Source: an uncultured Pseudomonadales bacterium (GTDB lineage: Bacteria > Pseudomonadota > Gammaproteobacteria > Pseudomonadales > Azotimanducaceae). Taken from it: 47,255 nucleotides of DNA. The position numbers were made by a program, and so were the translations under genes. Every line of letters begins with the position of its first letter. The stretch's first letter is position 1. The notes beneath the pieces were generated by a model, which made no database searches, was not told where the DNA came from, and worked only from the letters and a program-made list of their open reading frames with translations. The stretch is taken from the NCBI GenBank assembly GCA_905182095.1, contig CAJJAQ010000211.1, forward strand, positions 1 to 47,255, in the 5' to 3' direction. This document shows positions 13,421 through 34,871 of the stretch, piece after piece.

Positions 13421-14413
13421 ATGCTCCAAGCAAGGCTATGCCCCATGTATTTAAGACGCTTGTTCACTATATCGACCCTAACTCTTGCAACCATCTTAGC
13501 TGCCGTCTTAGCACCACTGGTTTTCACCTCAGCATTCGTTATGAGTTTTTTTCCAAAATTCAAAACTACGCCCCAAGCAATGTGTTTTATCTACGGATTT
13601 ATCGGCTATGAATGGATTGGTCTGGGTAAATTTGCATGGGTTTGGTTGCGCTATCACGAAATAGAAGAGCGCATGCGCCAAGATCGCAACGTCCAGTTTT
13701 GGTGGGGACGATCACTGTTTGAAATGGGCAAACGTCTGTTCAAACTAAAAATAGAGGTCACTGGCGAAGATGCACTATTGGGCAATTGTGCCTTGGTCTT
13801 ATGTCGGCACACCAGTATGGCCGACACAGTTTTACCGCTGCTATTTTTTGGCCAAGCCAGAGCAGAAGGCTTACGCTACGTGTTAAAACAAGAGCTACGC
13901 TATCTACCCTGCCTTGACATAGGTGGACACCGACTACCGAATGTATTCGTTGACCGCTCTGGAAGCGATTCCGCCAAAGCCATCAAAAATGTAACACGGC
14001 TCATGCAAGAGGCTCCAGATGACCAGTCGGTATTGATTTATCCAGAAGGAACTCGCTTCACCAGAAAGAAACATCAGCAATTAGCAGTTAAGCATCCAAA
14101 CCTAAAAGAACAACTAGAACGTTGGCCAGATCTTCTGCCACCCAGGCTTGGTGGCGTGCGCGGTATGCTCGACGCTAATCCAGGCAAAGACTTGGTATTT
14201 CTCGCCCACGCTGGATTTGAAGGCTCTGCAGACATAAATGATCTTCTCAGTGGTGGTTGGTTGAACCAACATGTGCGCATTCATTTCTGGCGCGTTCCTT
14301 TCGCTGAGCTGCCAACACAAGAGCACACGGATTTTCTCTTTAACCAGTGGGATATTATGCAAGCTACGGCAAAAAAGTTAGAACAAGAGATAGCGGCGGG
14401 CAACCCAAAATAG
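13421..14413 (+). CDS. PlsC-type 1-acyl-glycerol-3-phosphate acyltransferase family protein
   Basis: A 330-residue membrane-associated acyltransferase. One hydrophobic helix (residues 14-43) is followed by the catalytic HX4D motif CRHTSMADT (His130, Asp135) and the glycerophosphate-binding motif YPEGTRFT (208-214). FVDRSGSDSAKAIKN is the intermediate motif. Length and the large C-terminal part resemble the longer lysophosphatidate acyltransferase-like proteins rather than short PlsC. An ATG at 13445 is an alternative start (MYLRRLF) that leaves the helix intact. It may remodel membrane phospholipids. It is convergent with the hybrid kinase gene, 49 bp away. Confidence 0.83.
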   Translation: MLQARLCPMYLRRLFTISTLTLATILAAVLAPLVFTSAFVMSFFPKFKTTPQAMCFIYGFIGYEWIGLGKFAWVWLRYHEIEERMRQDRNVQFWWGRSLFEMGKRLFKLKIEVTGEDALLGNCALVLCRHTSMADTVLPLLFFGQARAEGLRYVLKQELRYLPCLDIGGHRLPNVFVDRSGSDSAKAIKNVTRLMQEAPDDQSVLIYPEGTRFTRKKHQQLAVKHPNLKEQLERWPDLLPPRLGGVRGMLDANPGKDLVFLAHAGFEGSADINDLLSGGWLNQHVRIHFWRVPFAELPTQEHTDFLFNQWDIMQATAKKLEQEIAAGNPK

Positions 14414-14462: not shown

Positions 14463-17000
14463 CTACGCAGATGGCTGTGAGGAATAGGTCCTAACTTTGC
14501 TCAACAACTCGTTGGCTAACTCATCTAATCTTACAACGGTTTTAGACACTGGTTTGATCTGGGCTACGCAAGACTCTTGTATGGCCGTACAAATGTGGTG
14601 CAACTCGTCAAAACCATAGCCTGAGAAAACACCGGACAAGGTGTGACAGGCCCGATCAACTTTTGCATAATCATTTACTTGCAGTCCACCATGAACTTCC
14701 GCAAGCCGCGCTTCAACTTCTATAACGAAGACTGCCAAAGCCTCGCGAAAGGCGGTATCGCCCATTAACTCTCTAATCTCTTGTATTCGTGTGCCGCTTA
14801 AACTGATATTGCCATCTTCTTGATCCAACCACATAGAAATACGGCTACTGAGCAGGTCGTAATCAATTGGCTTAGTCAAAAAGTCATCCATGCCTGCCTC
14901 CAAACATGCCCTTTCATCTTCCTTATAGGCTTTAGCGGTTAACGCAATGATTGGTTGCTGGAAATTTTGCTGACGCATCCAACGCGTTGCTTCCAGACCA
15001 TCCATGCCCGGCATTTGTACATCCATCAATACCAACCCAAACTGCTCTTGCACAGGTCGTTCCTTGGTGATCAATTCGCAAGCGGCGAGCCCGCTGTCCA
15101 CCACCTCAACAGTGTAGCCACGGCGCTCTAGTGCGGCCTTAACAACCAACTGATTCGGAGCACTGTCTTCCACTAGCAGGATCCGTTTTGTTGCATTAGT
15201 CGGCCCGCTACGACGTTGCACTTGAGGCGCTGCCACTGCACCAGGAACAAGCCGCAGAGGCAGCTCTAAAGTAAAGCAACTGCCTTCGCCCTTCTTCGAT
15301 ACAACGCTTATATCGCCACCCATTAAATGGGCCAAGTGTCGACTAATCGACAAGCCAAGACCGGTACCCAAGTATTTCCGTGTATCTGAATCATCGGCCT
15401 GCACAAATGCCGTAAAGACATCTTCAATTTGTCTACGCGAAATACCAATACCGGTATCTCGAACATGTATTTTATAAACCGGGGTGTCCTCATCAACCCC
15501 AACTTTTGCACCAAGCTCCTCTGCCACTCTCGGCGAACTGGCTATTAAAGCTTTTTCAACGCTGACTTCAATTTCCCCTACTTCGGTAAACTTAATGGCA
15601 TTACTCAACAGGTTTGAGATGATTTGTGTGACCTTATGATCATCACCCAAGGTGAAATATTCGTGGCTATCGCTTTCGCGAACGCGCAGTTTGACGCCCT
15701 GGGCTAACGCCGAAGGTTTGTACAGCGCGACCAAATCATTAGCGATTGCTGTAGGTGAAAACGTGCTCTCTTCCACATCCATTTCACCGGCTTCAATTTT
15801 TGAATAATCAAGCACGTTCTTCAACAAACTCATCAAGCGCAGACCTGAATTTTCAGCAGTGGTTAGCAAGCTCACCTGGTGCGGGTCCTGCAAATCTGCT
15901 CTAACTAAATTGACAATACCTAACAGGGCATTCAAAGGCGTGCGTATCTCGTGACTCATCGTTGCCAAAAAACGACTCTTTGCCTCATTCGCAAATTCGG
16001 CTGCGGACTGAGCCTCGCGCATTTTTTCTTGACGCGAATGATCCTCACGCATATCCCGCATCTCTGCACCAAAGTAGACATCACCAGTCAAATTAACCGA
16101 ACTTACTGCCAGCTCAAGAGGTATTTCCTCACCAGACTTATGTAAGCCGTTAATCTCAACTCGCTGACCTACTATCTTTTTTTCGCCGCTCTGAAGGTAC
16201 CTTGCCAAGCCGGTATAGTGAGCATCACGTAACGCTGGCGGGATTATAAAATCCGCCATCGACTTACCTGCAAGTTCCTTCAATGAATAACCAAACATAT
16301 CTTCTGAAGCTTGGTTCATATCAACCACCAAGCCCTCCCCATCTATCACCACTCGGGCGCTCAGACTGCCTTCCATCAACAATTGCTTAATTGCCTCATG
16401 GTCTTGCCGCGGCATAGGAATCCATGTATCTGACAATGATGTGATTGCCACCAATACAATTTTTGTCTCACTATGACCTACCAATGACAACTCAAGCTCC
16501 ATTGCATGATCAGTGTTTCGATTTACTGTAAAAGCCCTTCGATACATGTCTTTGAGCGAGCCTGACATTAGTTTTGCGTGGGAATCAAAAAGTGCATCTA
16601 GGTTGGCATGTATACTTTCAACGTCTTTAGGGTTATCCCATATAGAGGCAATACTTTGGCCCACCAACGAAACCCTTGGTAATAAATTATGCGCGCCATC
16701 GTTGGCCAGCAAAATATTACCCTGTGAGTCGACCCACAAATGGCCCTTGCCGCGTTCAAAGAGTGCGTCATCAAGCTGCTGTTGATTACGTTTTTGCACA
16801 AGGGAAATGTGCCTAAATTGCGCCGATGCCAGTAAAAACAAAGCAATCGCTAGGAGTAGCGTTGGAGCGGTTAATCTCTGATCGCCTGCACTAAATACAG
16901 TTATGGATTGATCAACAAGAAATCCTAGAATACTCAAATAGAGCCCTACAAAGAGCAACATAGAAGTCTTACCGCGTTGCCAAAATTGGATTCTAGACAT
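14463..17000 (-). CDS. membrane-bound hybrid sensor histidine kinase (PAS-HK-REC-Hpt)
   Basis: An 845-residue BarA-like hybrid kinase. Two membrane helices (about 14-32 and 45-60) with a very short periplasmic loop are followed by a PAS-like domain (80-190), a clear PAS domain (205-320), HisKA with ATMSHEIRTPLNALLG (His350), HATPase with NLLSNAIKFT, DTGIGI and GTGLGLSISRH (455-582), a receiver with VLMDVQMPGMDG (Asp660), and a C-terminal Hpt domain with RACHTLSGVFSGYG (His786). All phosphotransfer residues are present, so a full His-Asp-His relay can run in cis. The small loop suggests sensing in the membrane or cytoplasm through PAS. Its start overlaps the upstream degenerate kinase gene by 8 bp. 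No output regulator adjoins it. Confidence 0.93.
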   Translation of the reverse strand: MSRIQFWQRGKTSMLLFVGLYLSILGFLVDQSITVFSAGDQRLTAPTLLLAIALFLLASAQFRHISLVQKRNQQQLDDALFERGKGHLWVDSQGNILLANDGAHNLLPRVSLVGQSIASIWDNPKDVESIHANLDALFDSHAKLMSGSLKDMYRRAFTVNRNTDHAMELELSLVGHSETKIVLVAITSLSDTWIPMPRQDHEAIKQLLMEGSLSARVVIDGEGLVVDMNQASEDMFGYSLKELAGKSMADFIIPPALRDAHYTGLARYLQSGEKKIVGQRVEINGLHKSGEEIPLELAVSSVNLTGDVYFGAEMRDMREDHSRQEKMREAQSAAEFANEAKSRFLATMSHEIRTPLNALLGIVNLVRADLQDPHQVSLLTTAENSGLRLMSLLKNVLDYSKIEAGEMDVEESTFSPTAIANDLVALYKPSALAQGVKLRVRESDSHEYFTLGDDHKVTQIISNLLSNAIKFTEVGEIEVSVEKALIASSPRVAEELGAKVGVDEDTPVYKIHVRDTGIGISRRQIEDVFTAFVQADDSDTRKYLGTGLGLSISRHLAHLMGGDISVVSKKGEGSCFTLELPLRLVPGAVAAPQVQRRSGPTNATKRILLVEDSAPNQLVVKAALERRGYTVEVVDSGLAACELITKERPVQEQFGLVLMDVQMPGMDGLEATRWMRQQNFQQPIIALTAKAYKEDERACLEAGMDDFLTKPIDYDLLSSRISMWLDQEDGNISLSGTRIQEIRELMGDTAFREALAVFVIEVEARLAEVHGGLQVNDYAKVDRACHTLSGVFSGYGFDELHHICTAIQESCVAQIKPVSKTVVRLDELANELLSKVRTYSSQPSA

Positions 17001-18684
17001 GGTTCACTCCAGGCGTATCTTGATCATTTTTAAAACCAGCCTTTGCTGCAGCAAAAGGTTCTATTTCTATGCTTTCTCCTACGTATTTAGACAAAAACGT
17101 AAGCGCGTGCGAAATCTCAATATCTAAGTCCATCAATTCATTAGCCCAAAATCCACCTTCACTCGCCTCTACTTCTCGTGACGCTAAATTGGAAAAAAAC
17201 TGCAATTGATTTTCCGACAGCTTTGTACTCAAATTTTTCGCTGCCAAAGCCAATCGAGAAAAGCCGAAATTGTCAGCCGAGCAAACCAACATATACAAAT
17301 TGTGTCGAACCTCGGCAAGATTGCCTAAATGAATATTCTCTAAGAGACGTGACCGACTGCGTAATTCTGTAGAGAACCGTTCAAGCAATTTGAAAACTTC
17401 AACAACGCCAATGATTTTTGAAAACTCGGTTAAGCGCTCAACTGGCATAGTTGCTTCTAGAGTTGCTTCTAGAGTTGCTTCTGCGCGGCCCCCTCCTAAC
17501 ACTCGTTTTAACGCAACGGTGAGGTCTTTATCTTTCACCGGCTTAGATAGAAAATCGTTAAAACCTGCGTCTAAGCAAGCTTGCTGGTCGGCATCTGAAA
17601 CATAGGCTGTTAGTGCAATTAGGGGCACACGAGCGAGCATACCTGGCAGGTTACGAATTTCTTTAGCCGCGGTAATTCCGTCCATATTTGGCATCGCTAA
17701 ATCCATCAAGATCGCTGCGTAGGACTTTTGACGGACGGCAGAAAGAGCCTCTAATCCGTCGGCAGCCAAATCTACCGCATAACCTGCGGCGGTAAGAATA
17801 GACTTTAGAACTAAACGGTTAGACGGCGAGTCATCTACCAATAAAACATTCGTGATTTCTGGCTCAGCTATTGCCGCACTAGTGGCGTAAGCGTGTAATG
17901 CGTCCGAGGCAGCTTGGTCAGAGAGGGTGTTTAGGGTAACGCCACGGTTTGGTATTAAGTCAAATTGCTCTGCTACTTTTGCATCTAACGGCAATTCAAT
18001 AAGCCATCTGATACCACTGCCAATTTCGCTAGTGGCGTGTATCTCTCCTCCTATGAGGCGCATCAAGGCCCTAGCCAAACAAATATTCAGATTCAATTCG
18101 ACGCCATTAGACATACTCCAATTTAGTGCGCCACTAGACCATTGATTAAAGCTGAATAAATTATCCAGTTCAGATTGCGCCAGACCTAGGCTTGTATCCA
18201 AAATTTGAATCCCAAGGCGGCCTTGACGGTTTTTACTGACCTGTATATCGACGCGATCGCGGCGACTGAATAACACGGCATACTGCAAAACGTGTGTGAA
18301 ACTTTGGGAAAATTTTTCTTCATCAACAACAAACTCTGCTATTGATGCAACGTCTAAATCGTCGTCGTAGCTGACAAGAACAGAAACCCCGCTAGAGCGC
18401 GGGTCGAGGACAACACTATCCACTACAGATTCGATCAATCGACCAAGATCTACTGGTAAATTAGACACCTGCATCAACTGATTTTCTATTGAGTCTAGGT
18501 CACCAACGGTCTGCAACAACGAAATAAGGTGTTGTGTTGATAGATTTGCATGTTGCACTAGGGTCTGCTCTTCGGTTCCACTGAGCTGATCGCCAACAAT
18601 GGACAAAGTGCCTTGAATTGTATTTAGCGTAGTGCGGATATCCGGCGCAGCCAAAGACAACAATTGAGATAGCATAGATTTCAT
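16993..18684 (-). CDS. degenerate histidine kinase fused to REC and Hpt domains (soluble pseudokinase relay protein)
   Basis: A 563-residue soluble protein whose domain order copies the kinase encoded downstream. Residues 6-70 align with HisKA, but the phosphoacceptor position reads AAPDIRTTLN, with Pro14 where SHEIRTPLN has His. The ATPase region (75-235) has lost its N box (HVLQYAVLFS in place of NLLSNAIKFT) and the G2 loop, and G1 reads DTSLGL. The receiver (278-395) is intact: LLVDDSPSNR, Asp328 in ILMDLAMPNMDG, Lys381 in FLSKPV. A C-terminal Hpt-like domain has EVRHNLYMLVCSADNFG (His461). It probably cannot autophosphorylate but can receive and pass on phosphate. It precedes and overlaps the active kinase gene by 8 bp, so the two are likely partners. 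Confidence 0.85.
   Translation of the reverse strand: MKSMLSQLLSLAAPDIRTTLNTIQGTLSIVGDQLSGTEEQTLVQHANLSTQHLISLLQTVGDLDSIENQLMQVSNLPVDLGRLIESVVDSVVLDPRSSGVSVLVSYDDDLDVASIAEFVVDEEKFSQSFTHVLQYAVLFSRRDRVDIQVSKNRQGRLGIQILDTSLGLAQSELDNLFSFNQWSSGALNWSMSNGVELNLNICLARALMRLIGGEIHATSEIGSGIRWLIELPLDAKVAEQFDLIPNRGVTLNTLSDQAASDALHAYATSAAIAEPEITNVLLVDDSPSNRLVLKSILTAAGYAVDLAADGLEALSAVRQKSYAAILMDLAMPNMDGITAAKEIRNLPGMLARVPLIALTAYVSDADQQACLDAGFNDFLSKPVKDKDLTVALKRVLGGGRAEATLEATLEATMPVERLTEFSKIIGVVEVFKLLERFSTELRSRSRLLENIHLGNLAEVRHNLYMLVCSADNFGFSRLALAAKNLSTKLSENQLQFFSNLASREVEASEGGFWANELMDLDIEISHALTFLSKYVGESIEIEPFAAAKAGFKNDQDTPGVNHV
17449..17484 (-). repeat. 12-bp in-frame tandem repeat in the pseudokinase gene
   Basis: The plus-strand unit AGTTGCTTCTAG occurs at 17449-17460 and 17461-17472, with a third copy at 17473-17484 that differs in its last two bases. 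It encodes the linker repeat EATLEATLEAT between the receiver and Hpt domains. A change in copy number would alter linker length by four residues without breaking the frame. Confidence 0.9.
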
Positions 18685-19194: not shown

Positions 19195-20052
19195 TTATTC
19201 CACCTTCAACCAATAACCCCCATCGGGGTGATGCTTAACATGCCCCGCGGTGGGCGTGGCAAAATGCGTTCCAATAATCAAAATGTCCTCATCAACATAG
19301 CGCTCTAGGAGTGATTCTCGAGTTTTTTGCCCTTGTGCTTGATCAAAATCTGCGGAAGAGCACCAGTGGGTTTTAGTCATTTGAACGGGGTGATGAATGC
19401 AATCGCCGGTGATCAACCCTTCACTACCATTTGAACTGATATGTACGCTGACATGACCTGGGGTGTGCCCGGGCGTTGATTGGAGTTGCACCTCAAGACA
19501 AAGTTTATGGTCCTCTTCAACCAGGTCAACCAAGCCAGCCTCAACTACCGGTCGCACCGAGTCTGCAAGTACCGGCCCATAACTCGCTTCATCTTCATGA
19601 GCATCCCAATAAGCCCATTCGTTCGCCGCAATCAAATAGCGCGCGTTAGGAAATGTTGGCACCCACTGTCCTTCCACCAACATGGTATTCCAGCCCACGT
19701 GATCTACATGCAGGTGGGTACACAAAACCGTATCAATACTTTCACGCGGATAGCCCGCATCAGCTAGATCCTGCAAAAAGGTAGTTTGTAAGTGGGACCA
19801 ACTGGCGATGTTGCGTTCTTTATCGTTGCCTATGCAGGTATCAACTAAGATACGGCGAGTGCCCGTATCTATGATGAGTGCGTGCACACTCATAATCAAA
19901 TTACCCTGTTTGTCCATAAAGTGCGGTTGCATCCACTCGATAGCCTGACAGGCGTCACGAGTAGCGTCAGGCAAGATAAAGCGCGACCCGCCGGTCGTTT
20001 CCATTTCGATAACCCGGGTGACTTTTACCTCACCTATTTGCCATTGATGCAT
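19195..20052 (-). CDS. metallo-beta-lactamase-fold hydrolase
   Basis: A 285-residue binuclear-metal hydrolase. The ligand set is complete: THLHVDHVG (His113, His115, Asp117, His118), STPGHTPGH (His196), TGDCIHH (Asp217) and GTHFATP (His263). The length and the LVDTCIGNDKER segment before the first motif resemble the AHL-lactonase-like and alkylsulfatase-free branch of MBL hydrolases often annotated only by fold. There is no signal peptide, so it is cytosolic. It is divergent from the acyl-CoA ligase gene with 148 bp between them. A lactone or thioester substrate is plausible, not proven. Confidence 0.85.
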   Translation of the reverse strand: MHQWQIGEVKVTRVIEMETTGGSRFILPDATRDACQAIEWMQPHFMDKQGNLIMSVHALIIDTGTRRILVDTCIGNDKERNIASWSHLQTTFLQDLADAGYPRESIDTVLCTHLHVDHVGWNTMLVEGQWVPTFPNARYLIAANEWAYWDAHEDEASYGPVLADSVRPVVEAGLVDLVEEDHKLCLEVQLQSTPGHTPGHVSVHISSNGSEGLITGDCIHHPVQMTKTHWCSSADFDQAQGQKTRESLLERYVDEDILIIGTHFATPTAGHVKHHPDGGYWLKVE

Positions 20053-32422: not shown

Positions 32423-34573
32423 CTAAAAATTAGCTGAAGCGCTGACACCAAATTGCCTCGGCGCGCCTAACTGAGTAAACCCCCGCGCTGTATAACCATC
32501 TCTAGGATCATTGCCAAAGAAGAAGCCACGGACAAAGTAATCTGTATCGGCTAAATTGCGTCCCCATAAACTAAAGTCCCAGCGCTCAGTTGAATAACCA
32601 ATGGATGCGTTAAGCAATTCATAGCTAGACGATCTCTCGGCATGGCTATCAGAGAAATAGTAGTCATCCTTGCCCTCAACATTAATGTTCAACGCCCAGT
32701 CTTGGGCAATTTGATAATCGCCACTGAGATAAAATTGGTAGCTAGGGGCTTGGGCCTGATCCCGACCATCAAGGTTCTGACCGCTACCATCTATGTAGTC
32801 CTCAAACTGAGTATCCAGCAAACCTAGACTGGCAGAAAGTTGCAGTCGATCTGAGGCTTGAAAAGCCAGCTCAAACTCGAAACCTTGGTTAATGCCTTCC
32901 GCAGCATTACCGACATAGTCGATAAATTCAGATGACCCATTAGGCCTAACCCGAGTAATAGAAGTGGCGGTTTGCACATCACGACGCTGCATACGAAACA
33001 CAGCAGCGCGAAGACTCAGACGGTCCTCTAACAATGAACCTTTATACCCCAACTCCAAGTTCCATAAGGTTTCCGGATCATACAAACGTAAATCAGCGTC
33101 TAAACTGCCAGAGGTATTAAACCCACCGGACTTGTAGCCCCGGGTCAAACTGGCATACAGCAAGTTTTCATCAGCCAAAACCTTCTCCAACAAAATACGT
33201 CCACCGAGCAAATTATCATCTGGGGCAAAGCTGACACTTTCGCTATCAGAATAATTAGCACTATGCTCCTCAGCACGCAGCCCCACACTTATGCGCAAGC
33301 CAGCTGCCAATTCACTGCTCACTTCGCCATACAACGCCAACCGATCAACATCAAAGTCGCTGGTGAAATTATCCTCTAAGTAGGTGTACTGGCGAGTTAA
33401 GTCAACCTGGCGATCAAAGGCGTAGAAACCTACGACCCAGTCCACTTTGCCAGCGCCTAGACCTTCACCAGCACGTGAAAGCAAGCGCAGATCTAAGGTC
33501 GCCGTATCGACATCGCGACTATATAAATCAGTAGCGGTATAGCCGTCGACATCAAACCCGGCGAAGGTCCAATCCTCATCGTAGCCATAATCAATATTGC
33601 TGCTGACATAGGCAATTGAGGCGTCTAGGGCAACTTTCTCATTAAGATTATGGTCCAATTTGAACCCTAGGTATTTGCTCTCTTGGGTATCCGAACCGGG
33701 TTCGTCAGAACGGGTGTTGCGATCGTTGTCGAGCGAGAATGCGTCGTAGCCGTTATCAACATTTATAGAACCAAAGACTACCTGCCAGCCACCTTGATCT
33801 AGATCACCGGCAACTTTGCCGCGCACAGTGGTCTCATCATGGTTGTCGGTATTGTCTCGACCAAGGCGGGTATTGTCGATAAAACCATCATCTTTATATT
33901 GGTGCGCGCTAATGCGGAAACCAACTCGATCATTGATTGGCCCGGACAAAACACCGCCCAAGTCTATCGCCGAGTAATTGCCTAAACCAAAATCAACTGA
34001 ACCTGAAAGCTCATCGGCGACATCAGGGGTGACAACATTAATCAGCCCTGCAAGCGCATTAGCACCAAACACAGTGCCTTGAGGTCCGCGAAAAACCTCT
34101 ACTTGCGAGACATCAGCAAGCGTAGCAGCAGTGCCAATACCACTAAGGTCTACACCATCTACCAACAAACCTACAGAGGCGTTCAGCGGTTCAGAGAACT
34201 GGCCTCGTTCGCCAATCCCACGAACTTGGAAAAACCGCGCACGCGAACCGCCGCTGGAAAAATTCACATTAGGCGCACGACCCAAAATTTCTTCAAGGTG
34301 ACTCACCGATTCGCCATTTTGCTCAGGCAGCAAAACTGAAACGCTTGCAGCCAACTGGGATACTGAAGTGTCACGGAACTCGCCGGTAACAATGACTTCT
34401 TCGATGACATCATCCACGTCATCGGCGAAAACAGGGCTGGATAATAAACAGGCCGCGAAACTCAATATGCTCAATTGCAATAACTGGGCAGCACGAGGCA
34501 ACTTCGCCGCAAATGAGGACAGGCGAACCGAAAAGCAAACCGAAAGGCAAACCGAAAGACACAACTTAGACAC
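32423..34573 (-). CDS. TonB-dependent outer-membrane receptor under TPP-riboswitch control
   Basis: A 716-residue TonB-dependent receptor. A long signal peptide (ending near SSPVFADD, residue 50) is followed by a TonB-box-like EEVIVTG, a plug domain with VSQVEVFRGPQGTVFGANAL and AGLINVVT, and a 22-strand barrel ending in the terminal phenylalanine (GVSASANF). GTG at 34573 is the start: AAGGAG stands 6 nt upstream. A TPP riboswitch lies about 100 nt upstream on the same strand. Genomic work on thiamine regulons described TonB receptors behind THI elements, so thiamine or a precursor is the predicted cargo. No thi genes are adjacent; an inner-membrane transporter must lie elsewhere. Confidence 0.92.
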   Translation of the reverse strand: MSKLCLSVCLSVCFSVRLSSFAAKLPRAAQLLQLSILSFAACLLSSPVFADDVDDVIEEVIVTGEFRDTSVSQLAASVSVLLPEQNGESVSHLEEILGRAPNVNFSSGGSRARFFQVRGIGERGQFSEPLNASVGLLVDGVDLSGIGTAATLADVSQVEVFRGPQGTVFGANALAGLINVVTPDVADELSGSVDFGLGNYSAIDLGGVLSGPINDRVGFRISAHQYKDDGFIDNTRLGRDNTDNHDETTVRGKVAGDLDQGGWQVVFGSINVDNGYDAFSLDNDRNTRSDEPGSDTQESKYLGFKLDHNLNEKVALDASIAYVSSNIDYGYDEDWTFAGFDVDGYTATDLYSRDVDTATLDLRLLSRAGEGLGAGKVDWVVGFYAFDRQVDLTRQYTYLEDNFTSDFDVDRLALYGEVSSELAAGLRISVGLRAEEHSANYSDSESVSFAPDDNLLGGRILLEKVLADENLLYASLTRGYKSGGFNTSGSLDADLRLYDPETLWNLELGYKGSLLEDRLSLRAAVFRMQRRDVQTATSITRVRPNGSSEFIDYVGNAAEGINQGFEFELAFQASDRLQLSASLGLLDTQFEDYIDGSGQNLDGRDQAQAPSYQFYLSGDYQIAQDWALNINVEGKDDYYFSDSHAERSSSYELLNASIGYSTERWDFSLWGRNLADTDYFVRGFFFGNDPRDGYTARGFTQLGAPRQFGVSASANF
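34523..34558 (-). repeat. 12-bp in-frame tandem repeat in the receptor's signal peptide
   Basis: Three 12-bp units on the plus strand, GCGAACCGAAAA, GCAAACCGAAAG and GCAAACCGAAAG, lie within 45 bp of the start. They encode the recurring Ser-Val-(Cys/Arg)-Leu/Phe stretch of the n-region. It lengthens the signal peptide without breaking the frame. Confidence 0.85.
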
Positions 34574-34631: not shown

Positions 34632-34674
34632 CAGTTGGCGTAACACCGATGCTTCCAGAGCAGTAATAACTCCT

Positions 34675-34812
34675 ATCCCTACGCCGGCATTAACCGGATC
34701 AGGTTCAAAGGGTTCACTGTCTTATTGCTTATTTTAGAAAATGGTTCGTACATGATGTTTGCACAAACATAAGCAACAAGGAGAATCTCAGGCGTAACGC
34801 CCCCCCTTAGGC
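34675..34812 (-). ncRNA. TPP riboswitch (THI element)
   Basis: The minus strand contains the two conserved cores of the thiamine pyrophosphate aptamer in order: GCCTGAGATTC (34793-34783) and ACCCTTTGAACCTGATCC (34715-34698), then GCCGGCGTAGGGATAGG (34691-34675). Between the cores is a P3a-like insertion with TTGCTTAT/ATAAGCAA (34776-34769 with 34732-34725) around GTTTGTGCAAAC. The GGGG run at the 5' side and the ACCC form P2; CCTA and TAGG close P1. It precedes the TonB receptor gene and should repress it when TPP is abundant. Confidence 0.93.
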
Positions 34813-34871
34813 AGCGGTATCATATAATCATCTTAGGGAAAGAGTCCAGCCGAAAAACGACCTCATAAAAT

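Follow-up and report, generated by a model that had tools for sequence, protein, structure and literature searches.

The window analysed here, a 47,255-nucleotide stretch of a single contig from the draft genome of a marine bacterium (97.75% complete, 216 contigs), carries the gene of a hybrid histidine kinase together with that of an apparent paralogue whose own kinase core looks dead. We refer to these genes as hk (the neighbouring membrane hybrid kinase) and pk (the pseudo-hybrid-kinase). On balance, the pk product appears to be a paralogue that lacks ATP binding and autophosphorylation, has kept its receiver and acts on hk in the manner of RetS, most likely as a phosphate sink or an allosteric partner. 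This reading draws on a degenerate core and intact receiver residues in all 12 members of the family, the pairing with hk, the sister relationship of the two clades, sequence constraint, a fold match to RetS, joint loss that leaves scars and the failure to find an orphan regulator in the draft genome. Few pseudo-histidine-kinases are well studied. In this case, an ancient kinase has stayed beside its dead paralogue in an overlapping operon, and the draft genome encodes only nine receiver domains, none of them in an evident orphan regulator.

A pseudo-hybrid-kinase gene overlaps that of an intact hybrid kinase

The pk frame (16993–18684, minus strand) is open over 563 codons and encodes a protein of 563 residues with the domain order DHp-like hairpin, CA-like domain, receiver and helical Hpt-like domain. 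Its final 8 nt overlap the start of hk (14463–17000, minus strand; 845 residues), which comprises two hydrophobic stretches, a PAS domain, DHp (H350), CA, receiver (D660) and Hpt (H786). Pfam finds HisKA (2.1e-16) and HATPase_c (1e-25) in hk, and the catalytic motifs are intact in the three copies that we tabulated. Hydropathy reveals no membrane helix in pk (highest 19-residue mean 1.21, against 1.87 in hk) and the Pfam scan no sensor domain. The initial annotation described a soluble protein encoded in one operon with an active kinase; the lack of a membrane helix and the shared operon are borne out, with a partner whose kinase motifs are intact.

A metallo-β-lactamase-fold gene (19195–20052, minus strand; matched in 35 of 40 genus genomes) adjoins the locus or its empty site in all 20 spans that we read, and a convergent acyltransferase gene (13421–14413, plus strand; 33 of 40) closes the other side. 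Searches of the pk locus with Rfam and ARAGORN returned no matches. Elsewhere in the window, a TPP riboswitch (34659–34817, minus strand; 65.1 bits, gathering threshold 54.3) stands upstream of a 716-residue frame at 32423–34573. Among three relatives, the hk receiver is 95–96% identical and its CA domain 76–83%; the DHp (15786–15983) is 100% identical in all three, although the whole protein reaches only 74–81%.

The kinase core of pk is degenerate throughout its family

We assigned pk residues by alignment to hk, and audited the family by aligning 12 pk-family proteins with hk. In the DHp-like hairpin (18484–18681, minus strand), Pro14 (18643–18645) occupies the place of the phospho-accepting His, and the Thr at +4 is kept. 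In the degenerate, ATPase-like CA domain (17983–18447, minus strand), the N box is replaced (18280–18294; its Asn pair by H131 and Y135), the G2 box is lost (about 18085–18108) and the G1 box reads D163-T-S-L-G, with one of its glycines gone. Thus pk has neither the DHp His nor the intact N, G1 and G2 boxes that mark an active hybrid histidine kinase, and the loss of the phosphoacceptor, N box and G2 loop noted at first holds in the alignment. The same erosion recurs across the family. Pro fills the DHp His column in all ten intact members with a readable N-terminus, pk of this genome included (the N-terminus is cut in the other two of the 12), and the pk remnants of genomes G195 and G198 likewise read Pro. 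None of the 12 members has the second N-box Asn or the first two G2 glycines; 3 of them keep the first N-box Asn. Erosion of G1 is uneven, with the box surviving in a few members.

We made the comparison with Pfam profiles that the initial annotation had proposed as a check. HisKA scores only 0.019 and 15.4 bits in pk, under its cut-off of 26.9; HATPase_c still passes (5.1e-7, 30.5 bits, cut-off 26.4). The pk kinase core looks dead and its autophosphorylation is probably lost, as is, judging from the missing boxes, ATP binding. Weak nucleotide binding may persist somewhere in the family, given that HATPase_c passes and that some N-box Asn and G1 residues survive. The segment corresponding to the HExxT motif, the phosphatase motif of RetS, reads P-D-I-R-T in pk and has no His. 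Across the family, the Thr or Ser at +4 is kept in all ten readable members, and the acid varies (D, E, G, S or A).

Coding sequence comparisons point to constraint on pk. Among this genome, G050 and G162, pN is 0.19 against a pS of 0.68–0.74, values for which synonymous sites are near saturation and dN to dS ratios rough. Identity between the three pk proteins is 83–85% in the DHp, 70–72% in the CA domain, 80–87% in the receiver, 77–83% in the Hpt-like domain, 35–49% in the linker and 39–41% in the tail, so that the degenerate CA domain of pk is only slightly less conserved than that of hk (70–72% vs 76–83%). Many family members are just about 30% identical overall. The initial annotation had allowed that this copy might merely be decaying, a view with which remnants of pk or of the pair in G177, G195 and G198 would agree. 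Against it stand open frames in 12 genomes (two of them cut by contig ends), the Pro shared by ten of ten readable members, the intact receiver and the low pN relative to pS. With conservation across 12 genomes and constraint counting so heavily, a functionless duplicate is very improbable, and we rejected it.

The receiver is intact, whereas the Hpt-like domain has lost its canonical His

The pk receiver (17509–17850, minus strand; Pfam Response_reg, PF00072, 7.6e-28) has the full set of residues of a phospho-accepting receiver: the acid pair with D284, the phospho-Asp D328 (17701–17703), T359 and K381 (17542–17544). It was reported as intact on the strength of Asp328 and Lys381, and all four residues are present. 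All 12 family members retain the phospho-Asp, the Thr, the Lys and the second residue of the acid pair; the first residue of that pair is Asp in 11 of them and Glu in the twelfth. The receiver is thus probably working and would accept phosphate at D328. Its preservation bears on the idea that pk works without phosphate, as an allosteric or docking partner through its DHp/CA fold in the way of DivL, with the receiver a leftover. In the three close relatives, the DHp ranks with the most conserved segments of pk, and the modelled fold resembles DivL, as such a role would have it; a leftover, however, would not be expected to hold its residues in all 12 members when many are about 30% identical. 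We consider this phosphate-free role improbable.

The helical Hpt-like domain (17215–17448, minus strand) was originally credited with an Hpt-type His at position 461 (17302–17304). Two profile alignments correct this assignment, placing Tyr464 (17293–17295) at the canonical site and His461 three residues before it. An hhalign comparison of the pk and hk Hpt families (probability 92%) sets Tyr464 on the His column. The pk Hpt-family profile also matches LuxU (1y6d, E = 1.3e-4), in an alignment that puts the pk Tyr on a LuxU His, which we take to be the phosphorylated one, and the His461 column on a Glu. The Pfam Hpt profile (PF01627) has no match in pk of this genome; it scores in four of nine family slices scanned, all four with the canonical His, and exceeds its curated cut-off in one of the nine. 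At the canonical position, six of the 12 members have His, four Tyr, one Ser and one Pro. The His461 column holds His in 10 of 12 (in G126 it is Arg, with Tyr at the Hpt site), although as the canonical site His461 is ruled out by the two alignments. The view that pk retains its phosphotransfer parts therefore stands for the receiver and fails for the Hpt, the canonical site being other than His here and in five further members (6 of 12). An RcsD-type arrangement, with an Hpt His and no kinase His, is accordingly absent here, where the residue is Tyr464, and the canonical His is found in the other half of the family. Supposing that the ancestor, like hk, had a His at this site, the kinase core was lost first and the Hpt His disappeared later, in some lineages only, this one included.

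A further alternative is that pk cycles phosphate through unusual sites, either His461 or a phosphatase activity on the hk receiver that uses the kept HExxT Thr. The His461 column is indeed more often His than the canonical column (10 vs 6 of 12), and Thr or Ser at +4 is universal among readable members; RetS uses the Thr of this motif against GacS in the passages cited (PMC5992135). His461, however, falls on a LuxU Glu three residues before the site, the motif His is Pro and the acid of the motif varies, which makes such cycling more improbable still than a phosphate-free role.

The modelled fold and known pseudokinases point to a probable RetS-like action on hk

The AlphaFold model of pk, built from 9 alignment rows, is of modest quality (mean pLDDT 63.6, pTM 0.40), with pLDDT mostly 68–86 in the DHp/CA blocks, 60–76 in the receiver blocks and below 50 in the lid (residues 181–192). 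Full-length ShkA is its first Foldseek match. Among the best 50 of 1210 matches, the highest target-normalised TM-scores belong to RetS cores (0.74–0.82), including the structure of RetS with the GacS DHp (7n0e), and DivL scores 0.65–0.70. The resemblance to RetS may partly reflect a short ATP lid. By sequence, pk has the RetS-type combination of a degenerate CA domain and a receiver.

To our knowledge, RetS has no Hpt domain. In the parts of the published account cited, RetS of P. aeruginosa resembles pk in having a degenerate CA domain and receivers and in acting on a separate hybrid kinase with a receiver and an Hpt domain; its CA domain has no G boxes and it does not autophosphorylate (PMC5992135). 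RetS acts on GacS in three ways: it accepts GacS phosphate on its own receiver, removes phosphate from the GacS receiver and prevents GacS from autophosphorylating (PMC5992135). RetS differs from pk in its periplasmic sensor, its kept DHp His and HExxT motif and a drain that runs through REC2 (PMC5992135, in the sections cited). For its part, pk has no sensor, Pro in place of His, a single receiver and an Hpt domain without its His, and its gene shares an overlapping operon with that of its likely target, a paralogue of pk.

By analogy, pk could act like RetS both by taking phosphate and by blocking autophosphorylation. The dead DHp/CA core would pair with or dock on live hk, a contact that we infer, and D328 would accept phosphate from H350 or H786 of hk; phosphate on D328 would then drain or gate the hk relay. 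With Tyr464 at the canonical place, the Hpt-like domain could not pass phosphate on in this species, and D328 would thus be a dead end. Dephosphorylation of the hk receiver in RetS fashion is less likely because the HExxT motif has Pro for His. The Pro could also disturb pairing of the DHp helices, which counts against a RetS-like action.

We know of no receiver or Hpt domain in DivL. Like pk, DivL (which works with CckA and DivK) is a pseudo-histidine-kinase conserved for a non-catalytic role; unlike pk, it has Tyr for His, keeps its N, G1 and G2 boxes and carries PAS domains, as the cited excerpts describe it (PMC4211667). RcsD is likewise kinase-like without the conserved kinase His and partners a hybrid kinase, RcsC, but it retains an Hpt domain from which phosphate moves on to RcsB, and its cytoplasmic part is reported to autophosphorylate although the His is missing (PMC3762810). 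Having kept its receiver and lost its Hpt His, pk is roughly the mirror image of RcsD. CC_3162 of Caulobacter is a hybrid kinase that lacks the conserved His and keeps its receiver Asp; the cited passages offer an alternative His or a lack of kinase activity as possibilities and describe no paired kinase (PMC11481889). FasC and FasB, a kinase and a proposed pseudokinase that heterodimerise, recall pk and hk, but FasC keeps the His held to be the phosphorylation site, and the cited portion of the account mentions no receiver for either protein (PMC12675982). Pseudokinases acting on kinases are therefore known from what these sources describe (RetS, RcsD, DivL and FasC, with CC_3162 a bare description), and the initial statement that no well-described example exists is too strong in view of RetS/GacS and RcsD/RcsC (PMC5992135 and PMC3762810, as excerpted). 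We found no exact counterpart of the pk/hk pairing in our searches of open-access papers. What sets pk apart is the combination of no sensor, no membrane anchor, receiver-only competence in this species and a tandem paralogue in an overlapping operon.

pk and hk probably descend from an old duplication and have been lost in some relatives

A profile search found pk in 12 of 40 genus genomes (608 bits or more; next best 255 bits), and, when 390 genomes sampled from the order were searched with the Hpt profile, 4 were positive, all in this genus. For a tree, we combined 12 pk and 11 hk sequences with 41 rows from other hybrid kinases; the 41 represent 37 distinct genes, four pairs being the same gene twice, after one of 42 comparison loci was dropped by the coverage or stop filter. 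Neither this tree nor the hk alignment includes the G188 hk, which a contig end truncates. In the tree pk is monophyletic (UFBoot 100), as is hk (98), and together they form a clade (95). The tree supports pk as an ancient tandem paralogue of hk, with the qualification that the pk branch is long and long-branch effects are possible; it suggests that the duplication is old and that pk changed fast afterwards. The pk and hk clades appear to branch in much the same order, consistent with joint inheritance.

The search for the same gene pair in related genomes, suggested at the outset, succeeded: 10 of the 12 pk genomes also have hk. A contig break separates the two genes in G162 and G115, and hk is cut by a contig end in G188 and G021. 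Both flanking genes share a contig with the locus in this window, G050, G193, G126, G200 and G205; in G070, the search that found the metallo-β-lactamase gene elsewhere did not find it beside pk. Two genomes weaken strict pairing. G126 has pk, no hk at the locus and no match to hk at 1e-60, so pk can persist without hk. In G200, the open frame that comes after an open pk is an hk remnant; it encodes hydrophobic stretches and an Hpt that retains its His, but no PAS, DHp, CA or receiver. This remnant (L115:7275-7958) is an in-frame reduction, either a natural membrane-anchored Hpt or a recent deletion. Conversely, G192 carries between the same flanking genes a lone hk orthologue (L121:2410-3921) that ends after the receiver. 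It has no Hpt, its genome has no pk, and it is the one uncut hk found lacking pk. G200 and G192 are each a single case, with 7% and 6% contamination, respectively.

Elsewhere the pair has been lost, leaving scars. The two flanking genes of G177 share 89% and 79% identity with those of this genome, and the 188-nt gap between them still contains 23 codons from the end of hk (61% identity; E = 1.7e-4 when the hk tail served as query). In G195, a stop separates what is left of the two genes, the beginning of pk and the end of hk; G198 has a truncated pk start with a stop (56% identical to pk of G188, E = 4e-44). Of the 20 spans read, 11 showed no remnant and have the flanking genes within about 430 nt of each other; in G167, G152 and G187, the flanking genes enclose other long frames. 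Near a contig end of G147 (L067:2700-3395), unrelated coding sequence runs straight into the kinase, which starts only at its DHp, through either a chimeric contig or a true truncation. Relatives thus provide natural variants (pk alone in G126, pk with a membrane Hpt in G200, a kinase alone without Hpt in G192, and an Hpt His kept or lost) that make the role of the dead kinase for the live one directly testable.

Other receivers in the genome and the possible fate of hk phosphate

Nine receiver domains occur in this genome: those of hk, pk and seven regulators. A kinase directly adjoins five of the regulators (OmpR-like, PhoP-like, LytTR-type, NtrC and sortase-type-like), a heavy-metal-like regulator has a kinase about 1.7 kb off on the other strand, and PhoB and PhoR pass their family cut-offs on different contigs. 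Each regulator then has a likely kinase, assigned from gene neighbourhood or from its family. If these pairings are right, the seven other receiver proteins of the draft genome include no orphan response regulator for the hk Hpt. G050 (99% complete) has 11 other receiver proteins, of which seven are orthologous to the seven here; of the remaining four, three have an adjoining kinase and one is a GacA-like gene beside uvrC (237 bits, under the NCBIfam cut-off of 280) with Glu for the phospho-Asp.

These counts raise the possibility that pk is the terminal receiver of a relay running H350–D660–H786–D328, in which the dead core would be the output, directed at hk or at another effector. Since hk has a receiver and an Hpt of its own, a terminal Asp acceptor would be expected for it, and both the seven regulators here and the 11 in G050 leave none in plain view; G200, moreover, retains pk with only the membrane-anchored Hpt of hk, and the hk of G192, which lacks pk, has no Hpt. 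On the other hand, the absence of an orphan comes from draft genomes, partners are assigned by neighbourhood or name, the G050 count places seven of its regulators by orthology, G200 and G192 are the single, partly contaminated cases described above, and Hpt domains are able to serve regulators of other systems. We regard a terminal receiver as possible but doubtful. A specific form of it, in which hk and pk make up a closed two-protein phosphorelay without a conventional response regulator, seems slightly less likely again; phosphate would pass from hk to its own receiver, its own Hpt and then D328 of the dead paralogue, whose core would be the output and feed back on hk. Sequence cannot tell a terminal acceptor from the drain envisaged in a RetS-like action on hk.

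A GacA-type regulator as the output of the relay was considered and rejected. A GacA-like gene occurs in 29 of 40 genus genomes at 1e-25 and none was found in this genome. Where pk genomes have one (n = 10), the phospho-Asp position is Glu in 7, Asp in 2 (G188 and G126) and unreadable in 1 (G205); in genomes without pk it is Glu in 8 and Asp in 11. The 8 Glu genomes without pk and the two pk genomes with Asp also count against reading the substitution as a sign of pk as terminal receiver, and its link to pk is weak. As an observation in its own right, the GacA-like genes (L203:2503-3219 and L208-L236) have Glu for the phospho-Asp in 15 of 28 readable genus genomes, a pseudo-receiver GacA.

Four further HATPase_c frames in this genome resemble, by eye, gyrase/ParE, MutL and HtpG. 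Between this genome and G050, the LytTR-type regulator (L162:4498-5223 and L201; G050) is 100% identical over 242 residues; of the other orthologous regulators, five are 88–94% identical and one is 97% identical.
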